A DNA stretch of 64,000 nt from Croceicoccus sp. Ery15 (lineage in GTDB: Bacteria; Pseudomonadota; Alphaproteobacteria; Sphingomonadales; Sphingomonadaceae): assembly GCF_020985305.1 (NCBI RefSeq), contig NZ_CP087588.1, forward strand, positions 1,364,001 to 1,428,000, given 5' to 3'. Below, one piece after another: positions 26,924 through 42,886 of the stretch (position 1 is the first letter of the stretch; each line of letters begins with the position of its first letter). The notes under the pieces are model-generated. The model did not search any database. It worked only from the letters and a program-made list of their open reading frames with translations, and was not told the origin of the DNA. The translations under genes were made by a program, and so were the position numbers.

Positions 26924-27130
26924 ATGACCCAGCACGGGAAAGTCAGCGACTACAACGAAACAACTGGCACGGGCTTCATTGCACCCGAGAAGGGTGGCGG
27001 ACCCTTGCCATTCACGTGGGCCGATCTCCAGGACAAAGCTCAATTGCCGAAGCAGAATGACCGCTATGGGTACGATACGCAATCTGACCATGACGGCGAG
27101 ATTTGCGCCGTGAACCTGAAGAAGGCCTGA
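26924..27130 (+). CDS. Degenerate cold-shock-domain protein (left triad, gene 1)
   Basis: A 68-residue protein resembling CspA. It keeps the first strand (GKVSDYN) and an RNP1-like motif (TGTGFIAP in place of KGYGFI). RNP2 (normally FVHFS) is replaced by FTWADLQ, and the C-terminal half carries RYGYDT. I choose the MTQHGKV start because AAGGA lies 9 bases before it. Its closest relative in the window is the product at 42629-42886, which shares MT-HGK, GTG, DLQ and RYGYDT. Loss of RNP2 aromatics suggests nucleic-acid binding is changed. Gene 1 of a three-gene set with 27196 and 27377. Confidence 0.7.
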   Translation: MTQHGKVSDYNETTGTGFIAPEKGGGPLPFTWADLQDKAQLPKQNDRYGYDTQSDHDGEICAVNLKKA

Positions 27131-27195
27131 TCAGAAGTAAACTCGCCCGGCGGGAAATCCCCCATTGGGTGGCTCCAACCAGGAAAGGAGCAGTG

Positions 27196-27363
27196 ATGGA
27201 CCTCAATCAGCTTTACGCCAACCATCAACGTGCCCTTGTCGATGCGCGGCGGTCGGAGGGTCGCGAAGATCGGCCGACCTACTTCGATCTGGTGGAATAT
27301 TATGCGAAGCGCATCGGCCAGCATCGGGACGAAGCTCGCGTCCGGCGACACCATTCTATTTGA
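27196..27363 (+). CDS. YFDLV-motif small protein (left triad, gene 2)
   Basis: A 55-residue protein beginning MDLNQLYANHQRAL and containing YFDLVEYYAKRI. AAGGAG precedes the ATG. Mostly helical and polar, cytoplasmic. Paralogues are at 42363-42560 (MTLDQL, YFDLVGYYEKRI) and 41163-41387 (MDLNLEYAAHQRAL, no YFDLV). No function is known to me. It sits between the degenerate cold-shock gene and the VGPYxYT gene, as its paralogue does on the other side of the island. Confidence 0.65.
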   Translation: MDLNQLYANHQRALVDARRSEGREDRPTYFDLVEYYAKRIGQHRDEARVRRHHSI

Positions 27364-27376
27364 GAGGCATCGGGCT

Positions 27377-27748
27377 ATGAAAGAGCAATCTCCCGGTTTT
27401 CCCTTCGACGCGGAACCGCCGGTGGAACTCGTCAAGAGACGCGCCGCACTTACCTTTCAGGAACGTGAGATCTCTGCGCTGGAACGGATTTCCGATCAGC
27501 TTGCCTTGTTGAAGGACATGTTTGCCGTTTGTCGCGAGCAAGATCCCCCGGCAGTGACATCTACGTCAAGCCGGCCTCAAGGATTTCGGGAAGGTGAGGT
27601 CGAAAGAAACGCGTTCAGTCCGCCCGAGCCGGAGATCCCTGCCGGGATCACAGCGAGTACCGTGACGAACTACCGGGTCGGTCCTTACAATTATACGGAC
27701 CTCGAGCTCGCAAAGGCTGAATTGCAGCGCCAGAGATCTGCCCGATAG
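27377..27748 (+). CDS. VGPYxYT-motif protein (left triad, gene 3)
   Basis: A 123-residue protein. I use the ATG of MKEQSPGF. The middle is a predicted helix (LTFQEREISALERISDQLALLKDMF). The C-terminal 35 residues hold ITASTVTNYRVGPYNYTDL, then a basic helix. This tail aligns closely with the product at 42151-42360 and more weakly with 30671-30862. The tail looks like a beta hairpin plus helix; function unknown. Starts 13 bases after the previous gene, so it is probably co-transcribed. Confidence 0.65.
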   Translation: MKEQSPGFPFDAEPPVELVKRRAALTFQEREISALERISDQLALLKDMFAVCREQDPPAVTSTSSRPQGFREGEVERNAFSPPEPEIPAGITASTVTNYRVGPYNYTDLELAKAELQRQRSAR

Positions 27749-27797
27749 GCCAGCTTTGGTGACAGTCTCCGCACCAGGAACGACAAAGGAAACGAAA

Positions 27798-28034
27798 ATG
27801 GAAGCCGAAGCAACCGAGCTGGAGCGCAGAGTACTCGCGCATGCCAGGATTCTTCAGTCGTTGATCTGCTTTCTTGCAGAAAACCAGCCCGAAATTCTCG
27901 AGCGCTTGAAGTCAGCCTTCGGCACCGGCCATAACGTCGGGGAATACGAGCAAGACTACAGTTCAACCGAACAATATGGCGACATGTTCGTCAGGATGAT
28001 CGAAAAGGAAATCGCTCGCGGTGCGCCTCGCTGA
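27798..28034 (+). CDS. Hypothetical small helical protein
   Basis: A 78-residue protein starting MEAEATELERRVLAH with AAGGAAACGAAA in front. One long hydrophobic-heptad helix (HARILQSLICFLAENQPEILERLKSAF) followed by an acidic tail. No paralogue found in the window and no family recognised. Fifty bases after the left triad and 150 before nhaA. Confidence 0.6.
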   Translation: MEAEATELERRVLAHARILQSLICFLAENQPEILERLKSAFGTGHNVGEYEQDYSSTEQYGDMFVRMIEKEIARGAPR

Positions 28035-28179
28035 ACGCAACCTCCGGTTTTGACCTTCCGACGAGGCATGGAACATCATCGATAAGAACAGGAACCAGGG
28101 TCTTCCGATCGAAGTCGCCGATCGCGTAACCAGGCCATTTGCGCGCTTCCTCAAGATTGAGGCTGCGGCAGGGGGACTG

Positions 28180-29463
28180 TTGCTCCTTTGCGCCATGGTC
28201 GCACTGGTGTTGGCCAACTCGCCCTTGTCCGCCCCTTTCCTGAACTTCTGGAAGATGCCGATAGGCCTTCAGGTGGGTCAGCTGGATTTCACCCGCTCGT
28301 TGCATCACTGGATCAACGATGCCTTGATGACCTTGTTCTTTTTCGTCGTCTCACTCGAACTCAAGCGGGAATTCGCTCTGGGCGAGCTTCGCAATCCGAG
28401 AGTCGCGGCCTTGCCCTTCCTGGCCGCGCTCGGCGGCATGGCGGTTCCCGTCTCCATCTATCTCGTCCTCATGAACGGGCAGCCCGGTGTACACGGCTGG
28501 GGAACCGTGATGGCGACCGATACGGCCTTTGTGATCGGCGGCCTTGCGCTGTTTGGATCATCCATACCTGCGCAGTTGCGGATATTTCTGGTTTCTCTGG
28601 CGATCTTCGATGACGTTGGCGCCATATCCGTCGTTGCGGTCGCATATGGCGAGACACTGAACTTCGGTGCACTTGGCCTGGCAATGCTTGGTCTTGGCGT
28701 TGTGGCGACGTCCGCTCGCATAGGAATCAGGAGCATCCCGGTCTATTTTGTGCTCGGCGGAGGCATCTGGCTATGCTTCGATGCCTCCGGTCTTCATGCG
28801 ACAATTGCCGGCGTAATTCTCGGCTTGATGACTCCTGCTCGTCCATGGGTGGGCGATGAACGGCTACGCTCCATTATGGGAAAATTGACGTCCTACCCGA
28901 CTGGCGAGCACTGGAGCGGCGACACATCGGAACGTCACGATCTGAGGGAAACCGGACGTGCGATCGAGGAATCGCTCTCTCCCCTGGAACGCCTGGAAAT
29001 GATGCTGCACCCCTGGCTCGGGTTTGCGGTCATGCCGATTTTTGCACTGGCCAACGCCGGCGTGGCATTTTCGGGAGTCGATCTGGACCAGCGGGTCTCC
29101 GCTGCCATCTTCGCGGGTTTGGTGGTCGGCAAACCGACAGGTGTGCTGCTGTTCGCATGGTTGGCAGTGCGCTTCCGTGTCGCAACACTCGGTAACGGGC
29201 TCGACTGGGTATTTCTGACGGCTGGAGCCTTCCTGACGGGAATCGGCTTCACGATGTCCATCTTCATTTCGAACCTGGCTTTCACTTCGGCATTGATGCC
29301 GGCTGCCAAGCTGGGAGTTTTCCTGGGGTCGGCGACATCCGCGATAATCGGGTTGCTGATCCTGCTCTGGTGGACATCGAGACGAAATCAGGAGCAATCG
29401 TCCGAAGAGGCGACGGAGACCTCGACGTTCATCGCATCCACCAGTCCCGACAAGCCCACATAG
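28180..29463 (+). CDS. nhaA: Na+/H+ antiporter NhaA (start uncertain)
   Basis: Inner-membrane antiporter exporting Na+ for 2 H+, giving salt and alkaline tolerance. Seen: TDTAFVIGGLALFG and the transport-site Asp pair in IFDDVGAISVVAVAYG, plus about 11 hydrophobic helices. The listed TTG start drops the first helix's beginning. NhaA-like sequence (VTRPFARFLKIEAAGG) continues upstream in the same frame to about 28126, with the frame open back to 28054 but no ATG, GTG or TTG there. Either an ATT/ATC start or a one-base error after the out-of-frame ATG at 28068 is needed. The 3' end overlaps the convergent transglutaminase gene by 76 bp. Confidence 0.9.
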   Translation: MLLCAMVALVLANSPLSAPFLNFWKMPIGLQVGQLDFTRSLHHWINDALMTLFFFVVSLELKREFALGELRNPRVAALPFLAALGGMAVPVSIYLVLMNGQPGVHGWGTVMATDTAFVIGGLALFGSSIPAQLRIFLVSLAIFDDVGAISVVAVAYGETLNFGALGLAMLGLGVVATSARIGIRSIPVYFVLGGGIWLCFDASGLHATIAGVILGLMTPARPWVGDERLRSIMGKLTSYPTGEHWSGDTSERHDLRETGRAIEESLSPLERLEMMLHPWLGFAVMPIFALANAGVAFSGVDLDQRVSAAIFAGLVVGKPTGVLLFAWLAVRFRVATLGNGLDWVFLTAGAFLTGIGFTMSIFISNLAFTSALMPAAKLGVFLGSATSAIIGLLILLWWTSRRNQEQSSEEATETSTFIASTSPDKPT

Positions 29464-30266
29464 GTTCCGGCGACCGGAATCGTTTGCCCGATTTCGCGGG
29501 CTACTGCCACAGGCACGAGATTGGCCCCGCCAACACTGCGATTGGTTGGATCGAAGGGTATCCAGCCGGCTCCCGGCACAAAGACTTCCGCCCAGGCGTG
29601 TGTCGACCCGGCCCCCGAAGTGCCGTCCAGAATTTGATCCGGATTGTGGAGATAGCCGGAAATGATCCTCGCCCCGAAGCCGAGGCTTCTGGCCGCTTCG
29701 ACAAACAGCACAGCAAAATCCCGGCACGAGCCCCAGCCGCGTTTCAAGGTTTGCTCTGGCGACTGAGTGCCCTCGTCATCACGCGACTGGTATGCGATCC
29801 ATCCGGTCACGCCGGTACTCAGATCCTTGAGCATGGCCAGTGTATCGGTCGGATTGCCGCCAACGAACGCCTGCGCCCAATCGCGTAATCTACCGCCCGG
29901 ATCAGGATAGCTCTGCACGGTCAGGGCACCGAGGTCGGTCCATTCGTCGTCGGCGTAGCGGAAGGGGTAGGAAATTGCGGACGCCGCTATATCGAACACG
30001 GGCCATGCGACCGCTTCAAGCTGTACGCGCGCGGAGCTTGCGATAACGAGCTCTTCGGTCAGCCCCGTGAAAATCGCTGTCGCGACGGCATTCCCGAAGA
30101 CGTCATGCGCCCAGGATACCTGAGCTTGCGGCAGGATCGTAAGATCGAATGTCTTGAGACGGACCTCGCAGCTTTCGCGCGGCCGAAGCATAAGCCGGTG
30201 CGGCCCGAGCTGAACCGGCACCTGATAGCGGTAGCTCGTGCGATGCCTGATGAGCAGTTCTTGCAT
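29388..30266 (-). CDS. Transglutaminase-like protein (island copy)
   Basis: A 292-residue protein with a bacterial transglutaminase N domain (about 1-85) and a core with Cys181 (GSCRDFAVLF), His in STHAWAEVF and Asp in PFDPTNRS; the triad is complete. Close in design to the core-genome copy at 12192 but without ATP-grasp partner on the island. Last gene of a minus-strand run that starts at 34852; six bases separate it from the gene upstream. Substrate unknown. Confidence 0.88.
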   Translation of the reverse strand: MQELLIRHRTSYRYQVPVQLGPHRLMLRPRESCEVRLKTFDLTILPQAQVSWAHDVFGNAVATAIFTGLTEELVIASSARVQLEAVAWPVFDIAASAISYPFRYADDEWTDLGALTVQSYPDPGGRLRDWAQAFVGGNPTDTLAMLKDLSTGVTGWIAYQSRDDEGTQSPEQTLKRGWGSCRDFAVLFVEAARSLGFGARIISGYLHNPDQILDGTSGAGSTHAWAEVFVPGAGWIPFDPTNRSVGGANLVPVAVAREIGQTIPVAGTYVGLSGLVDAMNVEVSVASSDDCS

Positions 30267-30272
30267 GAGCTA

Positions 30273-30539
30273 TCAAACGTCCGCGAAACCGCGATCCGGA
30301 TTCTCGCTGAAACTTCGTATGTCATGGTCGTCGCTCCGCTGCTGCTGCACTTGCATGATTTCGGCGATCGCGCGTGTACGGCGCTTGCGTGCTTCCCGCC
30401 GTTCTGCTGCCGTCGCTTCATGCCCCCAGGCGATTGCAGCTCTCAGAGCCACAATCCGGACATTTTCGAGCGGCTCGCTCCTGGCGCGTTCCCATTGAAT
30501 GGCTTCCTGTGCACGGCACTGGTCGGATGTAAGTTCCAT
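30273..30539 (-). CDS. LENVR-motif small protein (copy 1)
   Basis: An 88-residue, very polar protein: MELTSDQCRAQEAI, then EPLENVRIVALRAAIAW, then an Arg/Glu-rich helix. CAGGAAAGGAC lies about 8 bases before the ATG. The LENVR--ALR motif also occurs in the 77-residue product at 40450-40683, so these are paralogues on the same island. Probable cytoplasmic helical protein, function unknown. Confidence 0.65.
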   Translation of the reverse strand: MELTSDQCRAQEAIQWERARSEPLENVRIVALRAAIAWGHEATAAERREARKRRTRAIAEIMQVQQQRSDDHDIRSFSENPDRGFADV

Positions 30540-30670
30540 TGGTAGTCCTTTCCTGGACGGTGAGCATGGATTGGACTCAATTGTTCATGGCAAGTTTGGC
30601 GCCGGGTGGCCCGGCCGCTTGCACGACAACTGGCCAGCCCGGCTTCCCATCAGAAGTTCCGGGCAGTGCC

Positions 30671-30862
30671 TCAGAATGCGATCTCTCTGCGCTTCGCCTC
30701 GGCAAGCGCATCGGCGAGCTTCGAATAGCGATAAAGCCCAACCAGATAAACCGCAGCGGGCACGCGCGTGATGCCGTATCGCTGCATTGCTTCCAGTTCG
30801 GCATCGCTTGCGTCCTCAATCGGGAGTGCTGTTGGATTGTCGGTCCTATTTATTCCTTTCAA
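30671..30862 (-). CDS. VGxYRY-motif small protein, probably coupled to GH130
   Basis: A 63-residue frame whose TTG start overlaps the GH130 stop as TTGA. Its C-terminus ITRVPAAVYLVGLYRYSKL, followed by ADALAEAKRRE, resembles the VGPYxYT tails of the two triad proteins. No good ribosome-binding site, so initiation may depend on coupling; the ATG within EAMQRYG is an alternative. Function unknown. Confidence 0.5.
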   Translation of the reverse strand: MKGINRTDNPTALPIEDASDAELEAMQRYGITRVPAAVYLVGLYRYSKLADALAEAKRREIAF

Positions 30863-32160
30863 GATTTCAGAAGTTCGAGCAGCGCCGCAGTCTCAACGGT
30901 TGCGAAGGTCGAAAAGGTGTCGGAGATGGCATAGGGAAGCACGATTCTGCCCTCCAGTTGCATGGCGCCGCAGGTGTACACGACGTTCGGCACATAGCCT
31001 TCGCGTTCGGATGCCTCCGGCTGGATGAGTGGTTGGCGGGATCGTCCAATGACCTTGGAGGGATCGTCCTTATCCAGCAGCACGGCGCCGATCGAATAGT
31101 GTCTGACCGGGCCGACACCGTGCGTGAAGAGCAACCATCCCTCGTCCAGTTCGATAGTCGAACCGCAATTGCCGATCTGGATAAACTCCCACGCATGCGT
31201 AGGCTGGAGGATAGGCTTGCCAGGCCCCCATTCATGCAGATTGTCGGAATAGATGAGGTAGAGATTTTCGTTGTCGTGGCGCGCTATCATCGCGTAGCGC
31301 CCGCCAATCTTCCGAGGGAATAGCGCCATTCCCTTGTTGCGTGCGCCTACACCTTTGAGCGGTGCCATGCGGAATGAAACGAAGTCCTCCGTTTCAAGTA
31401 ACTCAGACCTGATGGCCTGGCCGCTATAGGCGGTGTAGGTCGCGTAATATGTGGTCTTGCCTTCGTGCTCGAACGCAACGAAGCGCGCATCCTCGATACC
31501 ATTTGCCTGATGCTCTGTGATGGGAAAGATCACCCGCTCGGTAATCTCGCTGGCGGGATCGAAGGCGAGTTCCACCCGATCACCAACTCGCGCGGTAATT
31601 TCGGGAGCACTCGCAAGGCGCTCCGGGGCATCGATCGTAACAGTACCATCAGCCGCGACATTGCCGGTCCGGAAGGTCAGCGACGAGATGTGGCCTTCGC
31701 CCACTGCCCTTGCGCTCAGGATGAATCGGCCTCCGGTGGTGCCGAACTGATTTGGATGCGGGACAATGCTTGGGTTGAACAGCGCGGCTGCCTCGAAGCT
31801 GTATTCATTGAGGAAATAGGCGCCGATCAACTGATGCCGCGCTTCGGATAACGATGGATCGCAGGCAAATGCGCCGGACATTTCTGTCGCTCGCCGATCG
31901 AAGATGTCGCGCAGGTTCCGGTGCCTGCCTTTGAAGTTCGCGAGCGTTGCCGCCAGCAACGTTTCGATGCCTGTTTCATCGAGGGCGAGAATTCGCTCGA
32001 AGATGCGGCAAGCTCTCGATTTGTCGATCCGGTTCAGGGCTCTGGGCTCAGGTGCTGGCTCGAATGGACGCAGCACCACGCGCGCGGGATCCGGCCTCAG
32101 GTGCAGCGTCTGGCGATTGAAAAATGGCGTCGTGCGCGTGGTCGTTTCATGCATCGTCAC
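30859..32160 (-). CDS. Glycoside hydrolase family 130 (glycan phosphorylase)
   Basis: A 433-residue five-bladed beta-propeller enzyme of GH130, a family of beta-mannoside (mannosyl-glucose and mannan oligosaccharide) phosphorylases. Signatures: ALFNPSIVPHPNQ, NGIEDARFV with the catalytic Asp, GVGARNKGMALFPRKI, ARHDNENLYLIYSDN, and TEHGVG-like LFTHGVGPVRHYSIGAVLL. No signal peptide, so cytoplasmic. It begins inside the end of the glycosyltransferase gene (14-base overlap). The pairing suggests turnover of a mannose- or glucose-containing glycan made by the neighbour. Confidence 0.9.
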   Translation of the reverse strand: MTMHETTTRTTPFFNRQTLHLRPDPARVVLRPFEPAPEPRALNRIDKSRACRIFERILALDETGIETLLAATLANFKGRHRNLRDIFDRRATEMSGAFACDPSLSEARHQLIGAYFLNEYSFEAAALFNPSIVPHPNQFGTTGGRFILSARAVGEGHISSLTFRTGNVAADGTVTIDAPERLASAPEITARVGDRVELAFDPASEITERVIFPITEHQANGIEDARFVAFEHEGKTTYYATYTAYSGQAIRSELLETEDFVSFRMAPLKGVGARNKGMALFPRKIGGRYAMIARHDNENLYLIYSDNLHEWGPGKPILQPTHAWEFIQIGNCGSTIELDEGWLLFTHGVGPVRHYSIGAVLLDKDDPSKVIGRSRQPLIQPEASEREGYVPNVVYTCGAMQLEGRIVLPYAISDTFSTFATVETAALLELLKS

Positions 32161-34327: not shown

Positions 34328-34468
34328 GACGATAATGGCGGTTTCGGCAACTCCGGCCGAGGATCGGAGCGCCAGTTCAAGGTCTGTCGTGAATGTCGCT
34401 ATGCCGCAGCGGCGCGGCAGGGCGTTACCGACAAATGCAATCCGGAGTGAGCGCGCTGAAAAATCGTC

Positions 34469-34852: not shown

Positions 34853-34954
34853 GGTGCGCACTCCCACATCAAGCGGGGGCGCGGTCGGTCCCTCGGTCAC
34901 ACATGGCTCGGAAGATTTTTATGTGATGGATGCTTGTAGCATACTTCGCGCGGA

Positions 34955-34978: not shown

Positions 34979-35139
34979 GCTTCAAATTGTCATTTGGAAC
35001 GGAGCCTTGAGGGTAGCCAAAAAACATTGTCCGCTTTCCGGCGCATCAGCCGCCCGCCCAATGACCGCCTCTGGGGCGCTTATCTGCCATCAGCCAGCAG
35101 ACGGAAAGCCATAAGAATTCACCATGACGCTGATCTAAC

Positions 35140-35412
35140 TCAGTCCTGCTGCTCCGCCTCAAACGCCCGCCTTCCCTTGCGCCGGAACAGCACCAGCGCT
35201 TGCGCCCCATCCGGTCCGCGCAGCTTAGCGGCGACGGTGAGGAAAGCGCCGTAGAGCGCGGCGCGGTCATCGTCGGTAAGGTCGACCAGATCGGCCTTGG
35301 CGACCAGGCCGCCAAGCTCGATCAGTTGCCGGGTCCGCTCACGACGTTTGACCTGCCACTCGCGCATGTCGGTTCTTGCCTTCGCCGCTTCAAGCCGGTG
35401 CCGCGCCGCCAT
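35140..35412 (-). CDS. traD: Conjugal transfer protein TraD (Ti-type)
   Basis: A 90-residue protein, MAARHRLEAAKARTDMREW, then RERTRQLIELGGLVAKADL, the conserved block of small TraD proteins of Agrobacterium-type mobilization regions. It is not the coupling ATPase TraD of F plasmids. It overlaps the end of traC by 23 bases. Thought to be an accessory relaxosome factor. Confidence 0.85.
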   Translation of the reverse strand: MAARHRLEAAKARTDMREWQVKRRERTRQLIELGGLVAKADLVDLTDDDRAALYGAFLTVAAKLRGPDGAQALVLFRRKGRRAFEAEQQD

Positions 35413-35695
35413 CGAGCGGGAGAGTGCCTTCCGGCTGCTGGCGAGGTCCGCTCGAAGTGTCGCGTGACTTGCCCTGAAAGAATGCCGCGCCGCGCTTGCG
35501 CCAGCCCTCCCCGATTGCCTTGTCGGAGTTGGCAGCAGCATCGAGCAGCGCGCCTGCAAGGACATCGGCATCGAGCGCGTCGGCTCCGGTTGCCATGACC
35601 AGCACGCCTAGGTCACGCACGCGGCGTTCCTTCAACTGCTTGGCCCTGTCGGCAAGTGCCTTGAGTTCCGAATCAAAATCGCGGGGTTTGCGCAT
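35390..35695 (-). CDS. traC: Conjugal transfer protein TraC (Ti-type)
   Basis: A 101-residue protein; the ATG of MRKPRDFD is preceded by GGAGACTTCCC. Predicted N-terminal coiled coil (ELKALADRAKQLKERRVRDLGVLVMATGADALD is split here into helices), with the pattern of TraC accessory proteins that pair with TraA. Transcribed away from traA across the probable oriT. Confidence 0.75.
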   Translation of the reverse strand: MRKPRDFDSELKALADRAKQLKERRVRDLGVLVMATGADALDADVLAGALLDAAANSDKAIGEGWRKRGAAFFQGKSRDTSSGPRQQPEGTLPLDGGAAPA

Positions 35696-35810
35696 GGGAA
35701 GTCTCCATCGTTGGTGTGATGGAGCCATGATAATCGGTGAGCTTTCTCAATGCAGTAAGGTCGCCGGGACAATGTGATACCGCCTAGTCCCGATCAGGAT
35801 TTTATCATGA

Positions 35811-35826
35811 GAGGGCGCGCTTATAC
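35811..35826 (-). other. Probable oriT nick region (RSF1010/Ti type)
   Basis: The reverse strand reads GTATAAGCGCGCCCTC between divergent traC and traA. This closely matches the Q-type nic consensus (TAAG followed by TGCGCCCT), with one difference (C for T after TAAG). The expected cut would be just after TAAG or within TA/AG as in Ti and RSF1010 origins. Location between traC and traA is the usual one. Confidence 0.75.
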
Positions 35827-35868
35827 GTCGTGCCGACGCAGGCTTTGCGGTGTAACTGGAATGCCGCC

Positions 35869-38754
35869 ATGGCAATCTTTCACTTCAGCGCAAAGGTAAT
35901 CGGACGGTCGAGCGGACGCAGCGCCGTAGCGGCTGCGGCCTATCGTGCGGGCGAGCAACTGCACGATGAGCGGATCGACAGAACCCATGATTTCACCAAC
36001 AAGGCAGGCGTTCTTCATTCCGAAGTGATGCTGCCAAAAGGCGCGCCAGAAGCCTTCACGGATCGCGCCAACTTGTGGAACGCGGTCGAAGCTGCCGAGA
36101 AGCGCAAGGATGCCCAGCTATCCCGCGAAGTCGAGTTCGCGCTGCCACGCGAACTGTCGAAGAAAGACAACGTCAAGCTGGCACGCGAGTTCGTGAAAGC
36201 CGAGTTCGTCGAGAAAGGCATGATCGCCGATCTCAATGTCCATTGGGATATCGGCGAAGACGGCAAGGCCAAGCCGCACGTGCATGTCATGCTAACGATG
36301 CGCGAGGTCACGAAAGACGGCTTTGGCGCAAAGGTTCGCGACTGGAACAAGACCGCGCTGATCGAACAATGGCGCGAGCGCTGGGCCGATCATGTGAACC
36401 GTGCGCTGGCGGAACGCGACATCGACGCGCGGATCGATCATCGCAGCCTGGAGGCGCAGGGCATTGCGCTGGAGCCGCAGGACAAGATCGGCCCCGCAGC
36501 CTCGCGCATTGGCGGGCGAGGACTGGAAGCCGAGCGGATCGAAGAACACCGCGCCATCGCCCAGCGCAATGGAGAGCGGATTATTGCCAGCCCGGTGCTG
36601 GCGCTCGATGCAATCACGCACCAGCAGGCGACGTTCACTAAGCGCGATCTCGCGGCCTTCGTTCACCGACACAGCGATGGCAAGGAGCAGTTCGACGCGG
36701 CCTACTATGCGGTGCGCAGTTCGCCCGACCTGATTGCGCTGGGCAAGGACGGACGCGGGCAGGATCGGTTCACGTCGCGGGCAATGATCGAGACCGAACA
36801 ACGCCTGCATCACGCCGCCGACACGATGGCGCAGCGCACCAAGCATAATGTCAGCAACGCTCAGCGGAACGACGCTTTCGCCAGTGCTGCGAAGCGCGGC
36901 TTGGTACTCTCCGGCGAACAGAAATCCGCCTTCGAGCACGTGACCAAGAAGGGCGGCCTTGCCGTGGTCGTTGGCTACGCAGGAACGGGCAAAAGCGCGA
37001 TGCTGGGCGTCGCGCGCGAGGCATGGGAAAGCGCGGGCTACCATGTTCGCGGCGCAGCGCTTTCCGGCATTGCTGCCGAGGGGTTGGAGAACGGCTCCGG
37101 TATCGCATCTCGCACTATCGCCAGCCTTGAGCATCAATGGGGCAAGGGGCGAGAGAATCTGACTGCCAAGGATGTGCTCGTCATCGACGAAGCGGGGATG
37201 GTCGGCACACGCCAGATGGAGCGCGTTTTGTCCCATGCCGCCAAGGCCGGTGCGAAAGTGGTCCTGGTCGGTGACCAGCAGCAGCTTCAGGCCATCGAGG
37301 CAGGCGCAGCCTTCCGGGCTATCCATGAACGCCACGGCGGTGTCGAGATCAGCGAGGTCCGCCGCCAGCTATCCGCATGGCAACAGGATGCCACCAGGCA
37401 CCTCGCCACGGGCCGTACCGGCGAAGCACTCCAGGCCTACGAAGAACGTGGCATGGTCCATGCTGCCGACACACGTGAGGCGGCGCGCACGGCGCTGATC
37501 GAGCGGTGGAATAGCGAGCGACAGGGCAGCCCCGAAGACAGCCGGATCATCCTTACGCACACCAATGACGAGGTGCGCGAGCTGAACCAGATGGCACGCG
37601 GGAAGATGCGCGAGGCTGACGCTTTGGGCTCGGATGCCACGATCAAGGCGGCACGCGGCGAGCGGCAGTTCGCCAGCGGCGACCGCATCATCTTCCTGCG
37701 CAACGAGCGCGGGCTTGGGGTCAAGAACGGGACGCTCGGCACGGTCGCAATGGCTAGCGCGCAGCGCATGGCCGTGCGCACCGACGATGGCCGCGAGGTT
37801 GCGTTCGACACGAAGGATTATGCCCATATCGATCATGGCTACGCCGCCACCATCCACAAGGCGCAGGGCATGACGGTGGACCGCACCCATGTGCTCGCCA
37901 CGCCCGGCATGGATAGCCATTCCGCATATGTCGCCATGTCGCGCCACCGCGACGGGATGGCGCTGCACTATGGGAGCGATGACTTTGCCGACCAGTCGAA
38001 ACTTGTCCGCACGCTGAGCCGCGAGCGCGGAAAGGACATGGCGGGAGATTACCGCCCCAAGCAGGCCTTCGCCGAACTGCGTGGGATCAGCTTCCGCGAG
38101 CGGATCGTGCAGATGGTTCGGCAGGTGCCGGAGAAGACCAAATCGATCTTCGGAAATTTCCGTCCGCAGGCCCGTCAGCTTGAGCCGATTCCGGCGCAGG
38201 CAAACACGCAGAACGAGCAGCGCCGAGCGGTCGAACGCTACGCCCGCGCGCTTGGCGATATCGGCACGATGCAGGCCCAGGGCTTGCCCGTTCTTCCGCA
38301 CCAGAAGGACGCGCTGGAGAAGGCAGGAAAGGCGCTCAGTGCGATCCGGCCCCATGCCGCCACCGATCTCGCCAAGGCGCTGGAGCGGCGTCCTGAACTA
38401 GTTGCAGAGGCCGCAGGCGGGCGCAGCCAGGAAGCCATGCGCGCCATGCAGCACGAAGCCGCAGTCCGCACTGATCCTGCGCTGCGAACCGAGCGCTTTG
38501 TCAGCGACTGGCAGGGGTTGAGCACGGCGCGCAAGCAGCTTGAGCAGCAAGGTGATCGAGCAGGCGCAGCCCGCATGTCGGCCAAACAGAATGAGCTGGC
38601 CAAGACGCTTGAACGCGATCCGCAGGTCGAACGCCTGCTGCGCGGCAAGACCCGCGAACTCGGCATCGATCCCAAGCCCGAACGCAGCATCGCAAACGAA
38701 CTCACCGCAACCCTTTCCCGCGAGCGCACCCGTGCTTTCGACATGGGCATTTAG
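35869..38754 (+). CDS. traA: Conjugative relaxase TraA with helicase domain
   Basis: A 961-residue MOB-Q-type relaxase. I use the ATG of MAIFHFSAKVIGRS, the family start. The N-terminal MobA/MobL nuclease has the candidate active Tyr25 (AAYRAGE) and the metal-binding KPHVHVMLTMR near 140. A RecD2-like helicase follows: Walker A GYAGTGKSAML near 369, Walker B VIDEAGMVGTRQM near 440, and the C-terminal AATIHKAQGMTVD motif near 660. It should nick oriT beside it and unwind the transferred strand. No virB/trb genes were seen on the island, so it needs a helper. Confidence 0.95.
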   Translation: MAIFHFSAKVIGRSSGRSAVAAAAYRAGEQLHDERIDRTHDFTNKAGVLHSEVMLPKGAPEAFTDRANLWNAVEAAEKRKDAQLSREVEFALPRELSKKDNVKLAREFVKAEFVEKGMIADLNVHWDIGEDGKAKPHVHVMLTMREVTKDGFGAKVRDWNKTALIEQWRERWADHVNRALAERDIDARIDHRSLEAQGIALEPQDKIGPAASRIGGRGLEAERIEEHRAIAQRNGERIIASPVLALDAITHQQATFTKRDLAAFVHRHSDGKEQFDAAYYAVRSSPDLIALGKDGRGQDRFTSRAMIETEQRLHHAADTMAQRTKHNVSNAQRNDAFASAAKRGLVLSGEQKSAFEHVTKKGGLAVVVGYAGTGKSAMLGVAREAWESAGYHVRGAALSGIAAEGLENGSGIASRTIASLEHQWGKGRENLTAKDVLVIDEAGMVGTRQMERVLSHAAKAGAKVVLVGDQQQLQAIEAGAAFRAIHERHGGVEISEVRRQLSAWQQDATRHLATGRTGEALQAYEERGMVHAADTREAARTALIERWNSERQGSPEDSRIILTHTNDEVRELNQMARGKMREADALGSDATIKAARGERQFASGDRIIFLRNERGLGVKNGTLGTVAMASAQRMAVRTDDGREVAFDTKDYAHIDHGYAATIHKAQGMTVDRTHVLATPGMDSHSAYVAMSRHRDGMALHYGSDDFADQSKLVRTLSRERGKDMAGDYRPKQAFAELRGISFRERIVQMVRQVPEKTKSIFGNFRPQARQLEPIPAQANTQNEQRRAVERYARALGDIGTMQAQGLPVLPHQKDALEKAGKALSAIRPHAATDLAKALERRPELVAEAAGGRSQEAMRAMQHEAAVRTDPALRTERFVSDWQGLSTARKQLEQQGDRAGAARMSAKQNELAKTLERDPQVERLLRGKTRELGIDPKPERSIANELTATLSRERTRAFDMGI

Positions 38755-38764
38755 GAGAAACGAC

Positions 38765-39529
38765 ATGGAAGACGACCACATCGACGAAGTGCAGCTGGAC
38801 CTCGAAGTCGAGGAACCACCCGCCCATCAACCGGAACCGGAGTTGAACGCGGTGGAAGAATCCGATCCGGCGACGGAGGCCTTCGCTCGCCTCGAAGGCG
38901 AAATGGCAATGGTGCGCCATACAGTGCAGAACATGGCCAGGGAGCGAGCCGACATCGTAATCCCGGACTACACGGCGACACTCGGCCAGATGGCCGATCA
39001 GCTGGCAAAGGTCTCGAAGACGTTGAGCACAATCGGCAGCAAGCCCGCCATCGAGCTGACGCCGGAAGACATCGCGGTTCAGATCAAACGCACCTCTCTC
39101 GACATGCTGCGCGACAGCAGCGACCTGTTCCGGCAGGGTCGCAAAGATCTGGACATCGCAACTGGTCGGCTCGCTGCAATTGTCGGGCGCGTCCGCACGG
39201 AGGACGTGCAGAAGCGTCAGACCTGGCGCTTCGCAGGCATGGGGCTGGCTGCCGGCATCCTGCTCTGGTCGATCCTTCCCGGCACCATCGCCCGCGCCAT
39301 GCCCGAAAGCTGGCATTGGCCCGAACGAATGGCTCGCAAGGCGATAGGCGAACCAACCATCGTGGAGGCGGGAATACGGATGATCCGGTCACAGAATCCC
39401 GCAGCGTGGGAAGAGCTAGCAACGGCGCAGCGCATCCTGAGCGCAAACCGCGAAACCATCGACCAATGTATAGAACGGGCGCGGAAACTTCAACGACGTG
39501 TCAATTGTACAATACAAGTGTCACCTTGA
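38765..39529 (+). CDS. DUF6118-like membrane protein
   Basis: A 254-residue protein with an acidic N-terminus, a helical middle (TEAFARLEGEMAMVRHTVQ, then RADIVIPDYTATLG, then KPAIELTPEDIA) and one membrane helix near 165 (FAGMGLAAGILLWSILPG). TAGGAGAAACGAC precedes the ATG and the gap to traA is 10 bases, so it is co-transcribed with the relaxase. Proteins like this commonly follow traA in sphingomonad islands; I assign DUF6118 from memory of the motif pattern. Function unknown. Confidence 0.7.
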   Translation: MEDDHIDEVQLDLEVEEPPAHQPEPELNAVEESDPATEAFARLEGEMAMVRHTVQNMARERADIVIPDYTATLGQMADQLAKVSKTLSTIGSKPAIELTPEDIAVQIKRTSLDMLRDSSDLFRQGRKDLDIATGRLAAIVGRVRTEDVQKRQTWRFAGMGLAAGILLWSILPGTIARAMPESWHWPERMARKAIGEPTIVEAGIRMIRSQNPAAWEELATAQRILSANRETIDQCIERARKLQRRVNCTIQVSP

Positions 39530-39672
39530 AGAAGGAAAGCAGTCCATTTCTAGTGGGGCACCTAGTCAAGCCAACGCTCCATCATGGTGCAACTTGGTGG
39601 GCTTGGTGCACTGTCACACGTTCGAAGCGGACAGGCGGAAACGCCAGAAGGCAGAACCTGCCAGCTTGGACC

Positions 39673-39705
39673 AAAAAAGACCCCCATTCCCATCGGGAAT
39701 GGGGG
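39673..39705 (-). terminator. Intrinsic terminator after the ParS-like gene
   Basis: On the reverse strand a perfect 11-bp stem CCCCCATTCCC / GGGAATGGGGG (loop GAT) is followed by TCTTTTTTGG. It ends the minus-strand cargo block that begins at 42886 and faces the traA operon. Confidence 0.85.
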
Positions 39706-39790
39706 CCCTGAAGTCGAGGTTGGCACCGCAAAATGCGATGCGTCCCTTCGGGTCGCCTGGTTGCAGGTCTTGCTGCATTCTGCTGCGTGG

Positions 39791-40036
39791 CTATTCCTTG
39801 ACAGGAACCGCTTCTGGATACTGGATTTCGGCGAGCGCGCCTTCGACAAGAGCGCGTCCCTCTTCGCTTTCGATGACGAGGTCGATCGGCCGTCCGCCCA
39901 ACTTGTCATTTGGCGCGTTCATGAATGAAATCGCAGCCTCTCGCCCAAGAACAAGCATTGCCAATCGCGTGGCATCGCCCTGGCGGCGTGCCGCAGCTGG
40001 CGTGAGACGCACCGCCGATTTGCGGAACGGCGTCAA
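39791..40036 (-). CDS. ParS/MbcA/Xre-type antitoxin fragment (orphan)
   Basis: An 81-residue protein. The C-terminal part FMNAPNDKLGGRPIDLVI, then SEEGRALVEGALAEI, is the toxin-binding domain of ParS/MbcA/Xre antitoxins (DUF2384). RLTPAAARRQGDATRLAMLVLG precedes it. No RES-domain toxin gene is adjacent. Only a TTG start is available; an intact GTG start with an excellent GAGGAG site lies upstream in another frame (40083), so the gene may be interrupted by a one-base change in a T run at 40035-40038. Confidence 0.7.
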   Translation of the reverse strand: MTPFRKSAVRLTPAAARRQGDATRLAMLVLGREAAISFMNAPNDKLGGRPIDLVIESEEGRALVEGALAEIQYPEAVPVKE

Positions 40037-40354
40037 AAGACGGCTTTCGCCATGAGTCCGGATGGGGCGTATCGGGAATTCACGTCAGTCTCCTCGTGCA
40101 AAGCGGGAGCCCAACCTGTCTCTCAGTCGCAGGACGCCAAAGTGGTACTTACAGCGATGGGGCAAGGCGTAGCAGCTTGGCAGGATCAAGTCTTGCAAAT
40201 AATTCCCAACGCAAGTCGAGCCCTGCGCAACACAACCTGCCGATGCCGCTGGCGTATAGATCAATCTACCCCGAAGCGCGTTTGATAATTTGTCGTTCCA
40301 GACTGCGGAGCGACTATCCCGGGAGGATTTCGCCCTGATGCCGGTTTTGCCCGC
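40037..40354. other. Gap with no intact gene
   Basis: Contains the likely disrupted 5' end of the ParS-like gene (GTG at 40083, reverse strand). No other protein-like frame is seen on either strand. Confidence 0.5.
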
Positions 40355-40495
40355 GACGGTTTTGTCGTCGAAGACGAACTACTCATTGGAATGGATGTCG
40401 TCGACCAATTGCAAACCTGGGACTTTCAGACGCTCGAAGCCGGGACAGGTCACTTCTTATCAAAAGAAGCCCCGTCCTGCAGCGAGTTCGCCTGA
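40355..40495 (+). pseudogene. Remnant of a response-regulator receiver domain
   Basis: A plus-strand frame reads GFVVEDELLIGMDVVDQLQ, then TWDFQTLEAGTG, then unrelated residues and a stop. This matches the first 30 residues of a receiver domain (the acidic VVEDE pocket, then the first helix and second strand), as in sphingomonad VLVVEDEPLIAMD proteins. No start codon, no phosphorylation Asp, and the rest of the domain is missing. It overlaps the 3' end of the minus-strand gene at 40450. Evidence that a larger regulatory gene was lost from the island. Confidence 0.65.
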
Positions 40496-40683
40496 GAATC
40501 GTCCGCCTTCTTCAACCGGGCCTTTTCGCGATCAGCTTCGACCTTCCTGGCGTGGTCAGCCAGTTTCGAAAACATCGCCTCGGAGCGCAATGCTCGTAAA
40601 CGAACGTTTTCCAACGTCGCCTCCGCTGCCTCCGTCTTGGCTTCAGCCGCGCGAGCGGAATAGAATTTGTAACCTTGCTGCAT
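40450..40683 (-). CDS. LENVR-motif small protein (copy 2)
   Basis: A 77-residue protein: MQQGYKFYSARAAEAKTEA, then ATLENVRLRALRSEAMF, then a charged helix. GGGGAGGTCTGA precedes the ATG. Paralogue of the 88-residue product at 30273-30539. Probable cytoplasmic coiled coil. Downstream of cspA on the same strand. Confidence 0.65.
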   Translation of the reverse strand: MQQGYKFYSARAAEAKTEAAEATLENVRLRALRSEAMFSKLADHARKVEADREKARLKKADDSQANSLQDGASFDKK

Positions 40684-40760
40684 TCAGACCTCCCCTCGAA
40701 TGATTGATAGCACGCGCCGCGAGGGCCAATTCCTTCACGGCGCTCGCCATCGTCACAGGA

Positions 40761-40970
40761 TCAGTCGGCGACGCTGAGATTGACCGCGCTAGCCTTACCG
40801 TTGCGACCGGTTTCCACTTCGTAATTGAGGCGCTGGTCCTTATCGAGCGTCTGCATGCCAGCGGCCTGCACAGCAGAAATATGCACGAAGCTGTCGGCGG
40901 AGCCATCGTCTGGCTGGATGAAGCCATAGCCCTTGTCGCCATTGAAGAATTTTACGGTACCGATAGTCAT
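40761..40970 (-). CDS. cspA: Cold-shock protein CspA family
   Basis: A 69-residue single-stranded nucleic acid binding protein; start at MTIGTVKFF with AAGGAAGCGAA upstream. Both RNA-binding motifs are intact: KGYGFIQP (RNP1) and SFVHISAV (RNP2). It contrasts with the two degenerate relatives on the same island (26924 and 42629). Acts as an RNA chaperone at low temperature or stress by family knowledge. Confidence 0.93.
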   Translation of the reverse strand: MTIGTVKFFNGDKGYGFIQPDDGSADSFVHISAVQAAGMQTLDKDQRLNYEVETGRNGKASAVNLSVAD

Positions 40971-41162
40971 TTCGCTTCCTTTCAAGAAACGGATTGGGCC
41001 GGTCCGCGAAGTTGCGAACCGGATTCGTGCGTCAAGTCGTCAATTGAAAGGAGGTCGTCGTCTTATTGGTATGAAAAGCGGAATGATCCGATTTCCGCGC
41101 CAATCGTCGATACCCGTCGAAATTCAACGAGAGCAGAGTTTGTATCGCACGTTTCCGCGCAA

Positions 41163-41387
41163 CTAGATAGTCGGTTCGGGTCCTGTCCGTGAAACGGTGG
41201 GAGCTGTGAATTGCGCCTGGCTCCAAGCACATGCCGCTGCAGCACCCAAACCGTGCTGAAACTCGCTTATCCGCCCCGCTATTCGGGAGGCCTTTGCGAG
41301 CTTCGCGAGCCGGTCATCGTCGTTGGCGGCAACACCGGCACCCATGAGCGCGCGCTGGTGTGCAGCATATTCAAGGTTCAGGTCCAT
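41163..41387 (-). CDS. MDLN-type small protein (diverged relative of triad gene 2)
   Basis: A 74-residue protein starting MDLNLEYAAHQRALMGAG; the first 14 residues match the triad gene at 27196 (MDLNQLYANHQRAL) almost exactly. The YFDLV motif is absent; the rest is an Ala-rich helix and a Pro/Thr tail. AGGAGAACTGAC precedes the ATG. Sits between a 50-residue gene and cspA. Confidence 0.6.
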   Translation of the reverse strand: MDLNLEYAAHQRALMGAGVAANDDDRLAKLAKASRIAGRISEFQHGLGAAAACAWSQAQFTAPTVSRTGPEPTI

Positions 41388-41444
41388 GTCAGTTCTCCTG
41401 CGTGGGCGGGAATGCTGCTGCATGGCCGCTGGTTGAATTGCGTG

Positions 41445-41597
41445 TCAGTCGACCATGGTCGCGACGAGGCGTCGCAATTCGAGGGTCGGGATCATTGCGA
41501 CAATGGGCGAATAACCCTTTCTCGCCAGCGAGTGTGATGCGCCATAGCGCGGCGAAAGTATGGCACGCGACGTGGCGCGTGCAGTGCTGTTGTTCAT
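41445..41597 (-). CDS. Very small hypothetical protein (50 residues)
   Basis: Open frame MNNSTARATSRAILSPRYG, later YSPIVAMIPTLELRRLVATMVD at the end (split here for length: YSPIVAMIP and TLELRRLVATMVD). The C-terminal TLELRRLVA-M(V/I)D pattern looks protein-like and I have the impression it recurs in small sphingomonad proteins near cold-shock genes. Weak ribosome-binding site (GGATACAAGACAA). Between infA and the MDLN gene on the same strand. Confidence 0.55.
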   Translation of the reverse strand: MNNSTARATSRAILSPRYGASHSLARKGYSPIVAMIPTLELRRLVATMVD

Positions 41598-41642
41598 TTG
41601 TCTTGTATCCGGCAGGTCCATCCTGCCGCCTTTATAAGAGTG

Positions 41643-41909
41643 TCAGCGCCTGTATCCGCGTTTGCGACCACCGCCAGGGCCTTGCCCGGGTGTTCGTTCG
41701 CGAAAGACGATCCGGCCTTTGGTCAGATCGTAGGGCGTCAGTTCGACATGTACGCGGTCTCCAACGACCGATCGGATGCGGTAGCGGCGCATCTTGCCTG
41801 CAGTGTAGCAGATCAGACGATGCTCATTATCGAGGGTGACGCCGAAGCGGCCATCGGGCAGGATCTCGTTGATCTCACCCTCCATCGTAATGAGCTCTTC
41901 CTTCGCCAA
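41643..41909 (-). CDS. infA: Translation initiation factor IF-1 paralogue
   Basis: An 88-residue OB-fold protein: [20 protein letters not shown], then [20 protein letters not shown], then [15 protein letters not shown]. Normal IF-1 is about 72 residues; this one has an extra basic Gly-rich tail ([14 protein letters not shown]). The mobile context and diverged core mark it as a second, accessory IF-1 rather than the housekeeping copy. With cspA nearby, it could adjust translation under stress (inference). Confidence 0.88.
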
Positions 41910-41968
41910 TCCATCTTCCTAGCGTACGAAAAATCATCCGCACGGACGTATTCCGTCGCGGAACCATA

Positions 41969-42139
41969 GTGCATGAAAAGGAAGTGGTGCCGATCTCACG
42001 CTTGTGCGCAAACTGCGGCAATCATAATCCGTCGCAAACGACGTTAGGCAATATCTATATAACAGCGTATAAAAAAATTTCAACGGTCTCGGTCGAATGG
42101 CTTGGAAATTGTCGCTTGTGTCGACGGGTGCCGCTGTGA
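41969..42139 (+). CDS. Possible small zinc-ribbon protein
   Basis: A 56-codon plus-strand frame from a GTG, with two CxxC pairs: LCANCGNHN near residue 13 and GNCRLCRRVPL near 49. The base composition is clearly more AT-rich than its neighbours. Only a weak GGA is found before the GTG. Two well-spaced CxxC pairs in so short a frame are unlikely by chance, but the ORF is divergent from infA and overlaps its upstream region, so it may also be promoter DNA. Confidence 0.4.
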   Translation: MHEKEVVPISRLCANCGNHNPSQTTLGNIYITAYKKISTVSVEWLGNCRLCRRVPL

Positions 42140-42150
42140 CCGGATCGCGC

Positions 42151-42360
42151 TCATTCAGCTTCAGACTGACGCCGGTGCTCGGCCAGCGCGTCGTCCAGAC
42201 TGGTATATCTGTATGGACCGACGCAGTATTGGGTGATGGTCACCGCAGTGACCCCTTCGGGCAATACCGGCGATGAAATGGGCGTGGCCGAGCCACCTTC
42301 ATTTTCCCACTCGTTTGTCGTCTGGGCCTTGCCGCTTTGCGCTTCGGGAACCTGGCTCAT
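42151..42360 (-). CDS. VGPYxYT-motif protein (right triad, gene 3)
   Basis: A 69-residue protein. N-terminal part has EWENEGGSAT; the C-terminal part GVTAVTITQYCVGPYRYTSL, then DDALAEHRRQ, aligns with the tail of the left-side protein at 27377. Starts two bases after the stop of gene 2 (TAGGTATG), so translation is coupled. Function unknown. Confidence 0.65.
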   Translation of the reverse strand: MSQVPEAQSGKAQTTNEWENEGGSATPISSPVLPEGVTAVTITQYCVGPYRYTSLDDALAEHRRQSEAE

Positions 42361-42362
42361 AC

Positions 42363-42560
42363 CTATTGGAACCTATCCGATGGAAGCTGGTCCCGTGGCG
42401 CGCCAGTCCATGACTGAAGCGAACCGGCTCGCGCTGCCCTGATGCGCTTTTCATAATAGCCGACAAGATCGAAATAGGTCTCTCGGTCTACCAACGAACC
42501 TGATCGCACCGCATTGGCCTTTGCAAGCTCGTAGTTGAAAATCAGTTGATCGAGCGTCAT
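42363..42560 (-). CDS. YFDLV-motif small protein (right triad, gene 2)
   Basis: A 65-residue protein beginning MTLDQLIFNYELAKANAV and containing YFDLVGYYEKRI, the same motif and spacing as the left copy at 27196. AGAGGAGTTCGCC precedes the ATG. Helical, polar, no known family. Confidence 0.65.
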   Translation of the reverse strand: MTLDQLIFNYELAKANAVRSGSLVDRETYFDLVGYYEKRIRAARAGSLQSWTGAPRDQLPSDRFQ

Positions 42561-42582
42561 GGCGAACTCCTCTCGCACCGCT

Positions 42583-42619
42583 AAGAAAAGTCAGCCGAGG
42601 CCTTTCGGCCCCGGCTGAC
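42583..42619 (-). terminator. Internal terminator between right triad genes 1 and 2
   Basis: On the reverse strand a 13-bp stem (GTCAGCCGGGGCC / GGCCTCGGCTGAC, one mismatch, loop GAAA) is followed by TTTTCTTAG. It lies within the triad, so gene 1 would be expressed more than genes 2 and 3, by partial termination. Confidence 0.75.
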
Positions 42620-42628
42620 ATTCACGAG

Positions 42629-42886
42629 CTAGCCCTGCTGGGCGCGCGCCTGCTGCTCCTGCAGGCCGGGACCTTCGCCCTGCTGCGGCTGCAGGTTGAT
42701 GGCCCGCATGTTGCCACCGTTGACCTCGCTGGTGTCGTAACCGTAGCGCTGATCGACGCTGGGCTCCTGTGCTTCCTGCTGCAGATCCTTCCGTCCGAAC
42801 GCCAGCGCGTCGCCGCCCTGGTCCGGGGTAATCATGCCGGTGCCCTTGTCACTGTTGTAGCTCTTGATCTTGCCGAAATGTGTCAT
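42629..42886 (-). CDS. Degenerate cold-shock-domain protein (right triad, gene 1)
   Basis: An 85-residue protein: MTHFGKIKSYNSDKGTGMI, then DLQQEAQEP and QRYGYDTSEV. Like its left paralogue it keeps a diverged RNP1 (KGTGMI) but loses the aromatic RNP2 (FGRKDLQ). It has a Gln/Gly-rich tail. AAGGAATCGAC precedes the ATG. Promoter region is the 305 bp upstream toward the integrase gene. Confidence 0.7.
   Translation of the reverse strand: MTHFGKIKSYNSDKGTGMITPDQGGDALAFGRKDLQQEAQEPSVDQRYGYDTSEVNGGNMRAINLQPQQGEGPGLQEQQARAQQG

Follow-up and report, generated by a model that had tools for sequence, protein, structure and literature searches.

Two gene sets and their leaders

The window analysed here is a stretch of 64,000 nucleotides from Croceicoccus sp. 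Ery15 (contig NZ_CP087588.1, positions 1,364,001 to 1,428,000). It contains two sets of three small genes, called csp-like (degenerate cold-shock protein), Y (YFDLV motif) and V (VGPYxYT motif), each set being preceded by a leader RNA of one family that is treated below as a putative translational switch. The sets lie on both sides of an open reading frame (ORF) of 974 amino acids (35830-38754), which by its look we take to be a relaxase. All six ORFs were found with the starts and the inward orientation that an earlier note on this DNA had assigned to them. The shared structured leader, the greater length of the right-hand cassette and the Y members located away from csp genes were not mentioned in that note.

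The left set is encoded by the plus strand: csp-like gene, 26924-27130 (degenerate cold-shock domain, short form lacking a Q-rich tail); Y gene, 27196-27363 (found by protein search); V gene, 27377-27748 (ORF list and motif). The right set is encoded by the minus strand: csp-like gene, 42629-42886 (Q-rich C-terminal tail); Y gene, 42363-42560 (sequence comparison); V gene, 42151-42360 (16 homologues). Neither csp-like protein reaches the cut-off of the Pfam cold-shock domain CSD (PF00313, 27 bits): the left one, scored on the ORF from 26915, has 13.7 bits and the right one 17.6 bits. The left and right sets are diverged, as had been noted (46% identity for csp-like and 47% for Y, the two pairs for which it was computed). 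A search of the whole genome with the right csp-like protein gives, besides the protein itself, the left copy (E 5e-15) and four weaker matches, the best of which is the canonical CspA of the window (E 8e-5); the left Y protein matches itself and the right Y (E 2e-6), all others having E 0.05 or worse.

The similarity of the two sets reaches about 100-120 nucleotides 5′ of the first start codon, and some blocks are closer there than in the coding DNA. The similarity is more than chance, and the leader upstream of the genes is common to both copies. The right leader RNA (42893..43008, minus strand, first nucleotide 43008) ends at the Shine-Dalgarno sequence, 7 nucleotides before the AUG of the csp-like gene; the left one (26805..26914, plus strand) belongs to the same family. 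Their scores are 101.9 and 80.9 bits, respectively, with covariance model R1, and 100.4 and 78 bits with model R2.

A leader family of Sphingomonadaceae

The leader has a length of about 116 nucleotides, lies 5′ of csp genes and can be aligned across 22 csp-like loci. This alignment includes a promoter-like TTGTAA...CCATCT, then AGCTACCWGTCGCRATCGACGGT, then the Shine-Dalgarno sequence GAAGGA. Conservation is highest in the 5′ segment.

R1 was built from leaders of degenerate csp genes, and R2 from the family matches of R1. Where a search covered more than 40 genomes, the filters were stricter and weak matches are lost. Among 397 Sphingomonadaceae genomes, R1 matches 62 (E≤0.01) and R2 matches 87, belonging to 28 of 96 genera (E≤1e-3, 110 matches in all). 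In its own genome, the two window sites are the only R2 matches at E≤1. In a class sample, R2 matches 4 of 289 genomes, three of them within the family; the fourth match (genome G499, outside the family) is followed by no csp gene and was judged to be due to chance.

Downstream genes were read at 94 distinct leader loci, obtained from 100 listed R1 matches after removal of five second views (95) and of one identical locus; among the further R2 matches, only the one of G162 was read. A csp-family gene is located directly downstream in 87 of the 94 loci, its start being mostly 5-9 nucleotides past the end of the model. These genes are of the main degenerate type (55), of a second degenerate subtype named KSFD (10) or canonical (22), the classes being set by regular expressions, except for locus L100, which was moved by hand. 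As R1 was built from degenerate csp leaders, the 22 canonical matches are an independent check of the family.

No leader reached an Rfam cut-off, whether in the window (gathering threshold), in four loci (E≤1) or in 16 loci (gathering threshold), and none of 4227 Rfam models scored above its cut-off at E≤10 when the right leader of the window and a canonical one were scanned. The Rfam cspA thermoregulator, presumably RF01766, gave no match in any of these full-library scans. An Rfam sul1 RNA was found in locus L047 (5640-5693, minus strand; 56.3 bits, cut-off 36.2). It is divergent from the csp operon and precedes a transporter-like ORF; since it lies elsewhere and on the other strand, it is not the leader.

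Some leaders have other neighbours. In L073 and L091, the leader directly precedes a Y/DUF4072-like gene, a canonical CspA-like motif being found a few hundred nucleotides further on. In L090 (reverse complement of 2511-2627), it directly precedes a non-csp gene, which looks like a DUF892/YciF stress protein gene (our assumption); the leader may thus have spread beyond csp genes. Second leader copies are found within one locus in L045 (5690-5806 and 5879-5994), L048 (4650-4765), L106 (3782-3898) and L086; one of these second copies is in tandem, with no csp gene in between. Genomes G266, G341 and G454 (genus g105) each carry 3-5 copies, before KSFD-subtype and canonical csp genes; these loci are devoid of Y-V, except for one weak V-like ORF.

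Predicted closed fold

Single-sequence folding suggests a P1 hairpin, a P2 hairpin of variable sequence and a pairing of UUCCUUC with GAAGGA (P3) around P4. In the right leader, P1 (42986..43004, minus strand) is made of pairs that are invariant or nearly so in the 22 leaders, at positions also used by an alternative fold. The anti-Shine-Dalgarno UCCUUC (42952..42957, minus strand) would have as partner either the Shine-Dalgarno sequence (P3) or the 5′ segment (P-alt, see below). The Shine-Dalgarno sequence GAAGGA of the right csp-like gene (42893..42898, minus strand) is predicted to be paired, with an unpaired probability of 0.02-0.03 at 10-45°C versus 0.33 for shuffles at 25°C. A pairing of a second GUCG with P1 was dropped; it is not kept in every leader.

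This predicted closed fold is supported by base-pair covariation. In a MAFFT alignment of the 22 leaders, which was not fitted to structure, 84.7% of the cells pair versus 31-51% when the arms are slid. The same alignment has 40 double-change cells versus 23.2 after shuffling, a count reached by 0 of 500 shuffles; a weaker indicator is how many pairs show double changes (10 versus 8.0, 28 of 500). In a model-fitted alignment of 93 distinct leaders, 87.3% of the cells pair (34-51% slid) and 22 of 28 pairs show double changes, which amount to 262 cells versus 104.3 shuffled (0 of 500). When arms were swapped between leaders, a leader's own arms paired better for P2 (76/86), inner P4 (57/72) and P3 (59/82); outer P4 (37/63) and P1 (27/47) were less clear. 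Compared with shuffles of the upstream sequence, 55 of 61 degenerate leaders and 18 of 21 canonical ones are predicted to make the Shine-Dalgarno sequence less accessible, the seven of the 93 leaders that have no recognisable Shine-Dalgarno core being left out.

These results bear on a purely passive reading, in which the leader would have been merely duplicated with csp genes and would have no regulatory role. The leader does track csp homologues, which share ancestry. However, the compensating double changes are not expected from this reading, nor is the persistence of the leader between degenerate and canonical csp genes that have little sequence in common, and it is considered highly improbable.

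Alternative fold and proposed switch

Some leaders, L027 and L042 among them, prefer a fold in which the 5′ end is paired with the anti-Shine-Dalgarno region (single-sequence folding). At 10, 25 and 37°C, the mean pairing probability between the anti-Shine-Dalgarno and the 5′ segment in transcripts cut before P4 is 0.54, 0.49 and 0.42, respectively, as against 0.16, 0.15 and 0.14 after dinucleotide shuffling of the 5′ segment. The pairing exceeds that of the shuffled sequence in 83, 80 and 77 of 93 leaders at these three temperatures. In the alignment fitted to the closed fold and not to P-alt, 89.5% of the cells of the commonest P-alt pairs are paired versus 29-67% when slid, and double changes affect 8 of 15 pairs versus 3.3 after shuffling (0/500). 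The use of the 5′ segment in both P1 and P-alt would explain that P1 hardly varies. In computed folds, the leader thus has what is expected of a csp switch leader: two mutually exclusive structures, one of which hides the Shine-Dalgarno sequence.

Each set is probably a csp-like/Y/V operon, and the structured leader at its head, one of a Sphingomonadaceae family of csp leaders, probably acts as a switch of translation. When it is closed, the 5′ segment would form P1, P2 would stand alone and UUCCUUC would pair with GAAGGA (P3, around P4), so that ribosome loading would be blocked. In the open state, the 5′ segment would pair across P2 with UUCCUUC...CGCCUCUUAGY (P-alt), which would free the Shine-Dalgarno sequence. 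Trapping of the early transcript fold, for which cold is the first candidate, would keep the gene on; refolding at growth temperature would shut it off. The proposal relies on sequence statistics, which show the conservation of the leader, the covariation of its closed fold, the hiding of the Shine-Dalgarno sequence beyond that of shuffles, the conservation of P-alt and the adjacency of the genes. Both folds would be present in cells. The mechanism is likely kinetic, because P-alt can form before the Shine-Dalgarno sequence is made.

Several observations weigh against such a switch, or against parts of it. P-alt double-change cells are few (12 versus 7.1, 12 of 500 shuffles being as high); its registers were read from the same sequences, and the statistics ignore relatedness. 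When run unaided on the 22 leaders, RNAalifold recovers nothing beyond P1 and a portion of P4 (13 pairs in all, with a covariation term of -0.24). The double changes of P3 are mostly in its end pair. Among the degenerate leaders, 6 of 61 hide the Shine-Dalgarno sequence no better than shuffles do, and among the canonical ones 3 of 21. The median unpaired probability of this sequence is flat at 10-45°C (0.05-0.09 for degenerate leaders, 0 for canonical ones), and the median cost of freeing it rises in the cold, from 3.9 kcal/mol at 45°C and 4.5 at 37°C to 6.5 at 10°C. Neither simple melting, as in a thermometer, nor an opening by cold at equilibrium is predicted by folding at 10-45°C. As the closed fold wins at equilibrium, and more so in the cold, a cold switch must be kinetic or helped by a protein. 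Moreover, the best forms of the promoter (CTTG...CCCCAT) resemble alphaproteobacterial promoters of RpoH (heat-shock sigma factor), which would suit heat or oxidative stress no less than cold, and 35 of 45 Y-only matches (see below) lie away from leaders.

Promoter-like element and nature of the signal

Among the degenerate leaders, 53 of 64 are preceded by the pattern TTG-N17-19-CYAY, as are 11 of 22 canonical ones, whereas dinucleotide shuffles average 1.9 and 0.5; the stricter CTTG-N16-18-CCYAY precedes 19 of 64 and 8 of 22, respectively. Both patterns were chosen after the upstream sequences had been viewed. Their spacing would place the predicted RNA start near the A of AGCUA. In the window, the right leader is preceded by a -10-like CCATCT (43016..43021, minus strand) and by a -35 region, CTTTTA, that is a poor match; the left one is preceded by a promoter-like CTTG ... 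CCCATT (26771..26797, plus strand). Positions of both were counted by eye. The promoter and the leader would act together.

Since the promoter looks RpoH-like, heat or oxidative stress is kept as a rival signal. In the corresponding explanation, the leader would be an RNA thermometer (ROSE- or fourU-like) transcribed from an RpoH-type promoter, P3 would melt on warming and the operon would belong to the heat-shock response. The widespread promoter-like element and the drop with temperature in the cost of freeing the Shine-Dalgarno sequence agree with it. On the other hand, accessibility is nearly unchanged from 10 to 45°C, no Rfam thermometer family was matched in the leader scans, a conserved alternative fold would be superfluous for melting and the right window copy has a poor -35. 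A thermometer of this type is therefore regarded as unlikely, and the switch between two folds, with cold as the presumed signal, is preferred.

Comparison with described csp leaders

The 5′ untranslated region of the Escherichia coli cspA mRNA is a thermosensor (Giuliodori et al. 2010, cited in PMC6386945; PMC9947658), the cold form of which is described as being like a transcriptional intermediate (PMC6386945). Like it, the leader studied here would act in cis on a csp gene and would have two folds, which leave the translation start accessible to different degrees; P-alt would likewise correspond to a transcriptional intermediate. The two differ in the closing partner, which would be here the leader's own anti-Shine-Dalgarno, whereas the E. 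coli leader is said to associate with the coding region at 37°C (PMC6386945). They also differ in that no Rfam model passed its cut-off on the two leaders scanned at E≤10, the right one of the window and a canonical one. Furthermore, the promoter looks, on our assumption, RpoH-like here, unlike that of E. coli cspA. On the best reading, the leader is a switch leader of the csp family, analogous to the E. coli cspA thermosensor and unmatched with it.

Caulobacter crescentus cspA and cspB are also alphaproteobacterial csp genes and have long 5′ untranslated regions acting on mRNA stability and translation (PMC8552747). The leader model has no match outside Sphingomonadaceae in the 289-genome class sample, bar the chance-like one; this comparison is of distribution, not of the leaders themselves.

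Post-transcriptional control of csp genes is thus known for E. coli and reported for Caulobacter, and neither a description of a csp switch leader of Sphingomonadaceae nor an account of this leader or operon was found in searches of open-licence papers. If the proposal is true, these bacteria, which are common in sea water, soil and polluted sites, would have an independent and compact solution of the same problem: 116 nucleotides and two competing pairings of one anti-Shine-Dalgarno.

Conservation of csp-like, Y and V as a unit

The right csp-like protein matches 12 of 148 relatives' genomes at E≤1e-6, 3 of the 12 being of canonical type. In the genome collection, it led to 11 named loci, from Altererythrobacter, Aurantiacibacter, Qipengyuania, Erythrobacter, Novosphingobium and two metagenome-assembled genomes; the order csp-like, Y, V was recurrent when these loci were read. 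Y and V were then counted within 900 nucleotides of leader-bearing csp genes. Among the 55 main-type degenerate loci, both are present in 36 (as separate ORFs in 24 and as one fused ORF in 12), Y only in 7, V only in 4 and neither in 8. By comparison, a Y-like ORF is found in 1 of 22 canonical loci and V in none of the 22; a V-like ORF is found in 1 of 10 KSFD loci. The suggestion of the earlier note that the three genes are a functional unit is borne out in that they form a conserved unit and are often neighbours in other genomes.

Y and V are a single ORF in two of the loci read, L034 and L047. With the fused protein of L047 as query, 170 relatives were obtained at E≤1e-3; the 120 listed are mostly of fused length. 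A search with the fused alignment, blind to the leader, gave 98 matches in 71 of 397 family genomes; a match lies downstream of 39 of the 110 leaders. A leader lies no more than 1.2 kb upstream of 12 of the 13 fused Y-V matches, of 22 of the 40 matches to V only and of 10 of the 45 to Y only. V and fused Y-V therefore keep company with the leader and csp, and Y is a wider family. The natural fusion of Y and V in 12 loci speaks for a joint role of the two.

The three proteins

The absence of RNP2 aromatics from both cold-shock members, described previously, is confirmed, and the loss goes further, since the RNP1 aromatics are affected too. Among 32 aligned degenerate members (30 of 63 homologues and both window copies), the F and the H of RNP2 are each lost in 32, the first RNP1 aromatic in 32 and the second in 31, the left window copy alone keeping F. 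The AlphaFold2 model of the right csp-like protein has a five-stranded barrel-like fold (mean pLDDT 81.6, pTM 0.69) and a disordered Q-rich tail. This tail, which ends in ...QARAQQG, is conserved in the window (42629-42700) and in most main-type csp-like proteins; it is absent from the left copy. A csp-like profile, which includes one canonical row, matches solved cold-shock proteins (best 3cam, E 1.1e-10); a likeness to the retron Se72 effector (E 0.011) is far under the cut-off. The csp-like proteins would thus be related to PF00313 by a weak Pfam match, the 3cam profile match and the predicted fold, and differ from it by a score under the cut-off, the loss of RNP aromatics in nearly all aligned members and the Q-rich tail. 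They appear to be a branch that has kept the (predicted) fold and the operon but lost the residues to which RNA binding is attributed.

No Pfam model matches either Y protein of the window at E≤1, so that the DUF4072 (PF13284) cut-off is not reached. Y nevertheless has a MDLN..YAxHQRAL start in common with a DUF4072-like paralogue of the window (41163-41369, minus strand), itself under the PF13284 cut-off (17.9 versus 24.6 bits). V and fused Y-V have no consistent Pfam match. The predicted structure of fused Y-V (pTM 0.30) suggests, with low confidence, that Y is a helical hairpin and that V, which follows a disordered linker, has a pair of short strands and one helix; it is too weak a basis for assigning a function. 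The three proteins would act together in or on the translation machinery; as a guess, csp-like and Y-V could be protein-protein adaptors near the ribosome. If the proposal is true, it would also give a handle on these three uncharacterized proteins.

The loss of aromatics bears on a last explanation of the leader, autoregulation, in which the invariant P1/5′ segment would be the site of a Csp, canonical or degenerate, or of another RNA-binding protein that chooses the fold, temperature acting only through the protein. The 5′ segment is indeed the most conserved and the regulated genes are csp homologues; csp genes of Caulobacter and Sinorhizobium are regulated post-transcriptionally (PMC8552747, PMC5928217). 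Yet the double use of this segment in P1 and P-alt already accounts for its conservation, the aromatics that bind nucleic acids are lost from the degenerate proteins and some leaders precede genes without csp. Autoregulation is rather improbable, and the two-fold switch remains the preferred reading.

Origin and selection

A duplication in the sense of a copy made in this genome is not supported. L039, L040 and L064 encode csp-like proteins that share 82-86% identity with the right one, which is 46% identical to the left one; the latter groups with the protein of L110 (support 94/93) in a poorly resolved tree with long branches, in which the canonical csp genes form one clade (100/100). These identities and the tree rule out a recent duplication in this genome, and the sequences indicate that the two window copies are old, diverged paralogues.

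Nor does the right copy appear to be recent, degenerate and free of codon selection, an eventuality raised earlier. The ratio of non-synonymous to synonymous substitution (dN/dS), calculated pairwise by the Nei-Gojobori method with no significance test, is 0.2-0.4 for all three genes of the right copy versus their nearest relatives. Over all pairs, it ranges from 0.05 to 0.42 for csp-like, from 0.11 to 0.60 for Y and from 0.12 to 0.28 for V (one V pair being saturated). On these ratios, read without a formal test, the idea that the right copy is a pseudogene is rejected.

Right-hand cassette and genomic surroundings

On the right, the set is continued on the minus strand by four genes: a second IF-1 of the genome (41643-41909, TTG start; Pfam eIF-1a 70.6 bits on 41885-41643, cut-off 30.2); a 58-amino-acid protein ending in LRRLVATMVD (41445-41621; ORF list and synteny); the DUF4072-like paralogue of Y; and a canonical CspA with intact RNP motifs (40761-40970; Pfam CSD 73.9 bits), before which the leader model has no match. 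The cassette IF-1 is 62% identical to the other infA product of the genome (C1:97288) and 95-99% identical across five cassettes (the window and four others). Synteny was established by short protein motifs on pieces of unequal length. In 9 distinct loci, which have the type of the right window copy, the distance from V to the IF-1 gene downstream of it is constant, and IF-1 is itself followed by the 58-amino-acid protein and then canonical CspA wherever the piece is long enough. By contrast, rpsL follows in 9 of 12 fused loci. With rpsL linked to the chromosomal copies and a second IF-1 to the putatively mobile ones, a role in translation initiation under stress is directly testable.

The same integrase-like ORF is located upstream in three places (the window, L039 and L048), the first two of which have a tRNA gene next to it; that of the window (43192-44439, integrase-like on our reading) adjoins a tRNA-Tyr gene (44577-44662). 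Together with the relaxase-like ORF, it would make an integrative mobilizable element a candidate setting for the right copy. Levels of IF3 and IF1 increase in cold-exposed E. coli, where both factors contribute to the translational bias of cold shock (PMC6386945), so a csp cassette with its own IF-1 would make sense as a module tuning translation. A bolder proposal, possible but rather doubtful, is that the right cluster is a mobile cold-translation cassette on an integrative element. It would carry along a switchable leader, an RNA chaperone and an initiation factor, by which the recipient would re-tune the initiation of translation under stress. In that case, degenerate csp and Y-V would be a new ribosome-associated pair having lost nucleic-acid binding via the RNP motifs.

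About 200 nucleotides upstream of IF-1 (window 41910-42110, minus strand) are conserved in L040, L045, L048 and L049 and include a hairpin-like stretch, CGTCGTTTGCGACGG; the csp leader model does not match this region. In L039, IF-1 is farther off, behind an apparent insertion that splits the cassette: a long ORF and a second ORF, presumably IstB-like, are located between Y and IF-1 (L039:6667-8935). The setting of the left window copy is unlike that of the right one: it is flanked by ORFs 24886-26703 and 28180-29463, which we take to encode a transporter-like protein and an NhaA-like antiporter, respectively.

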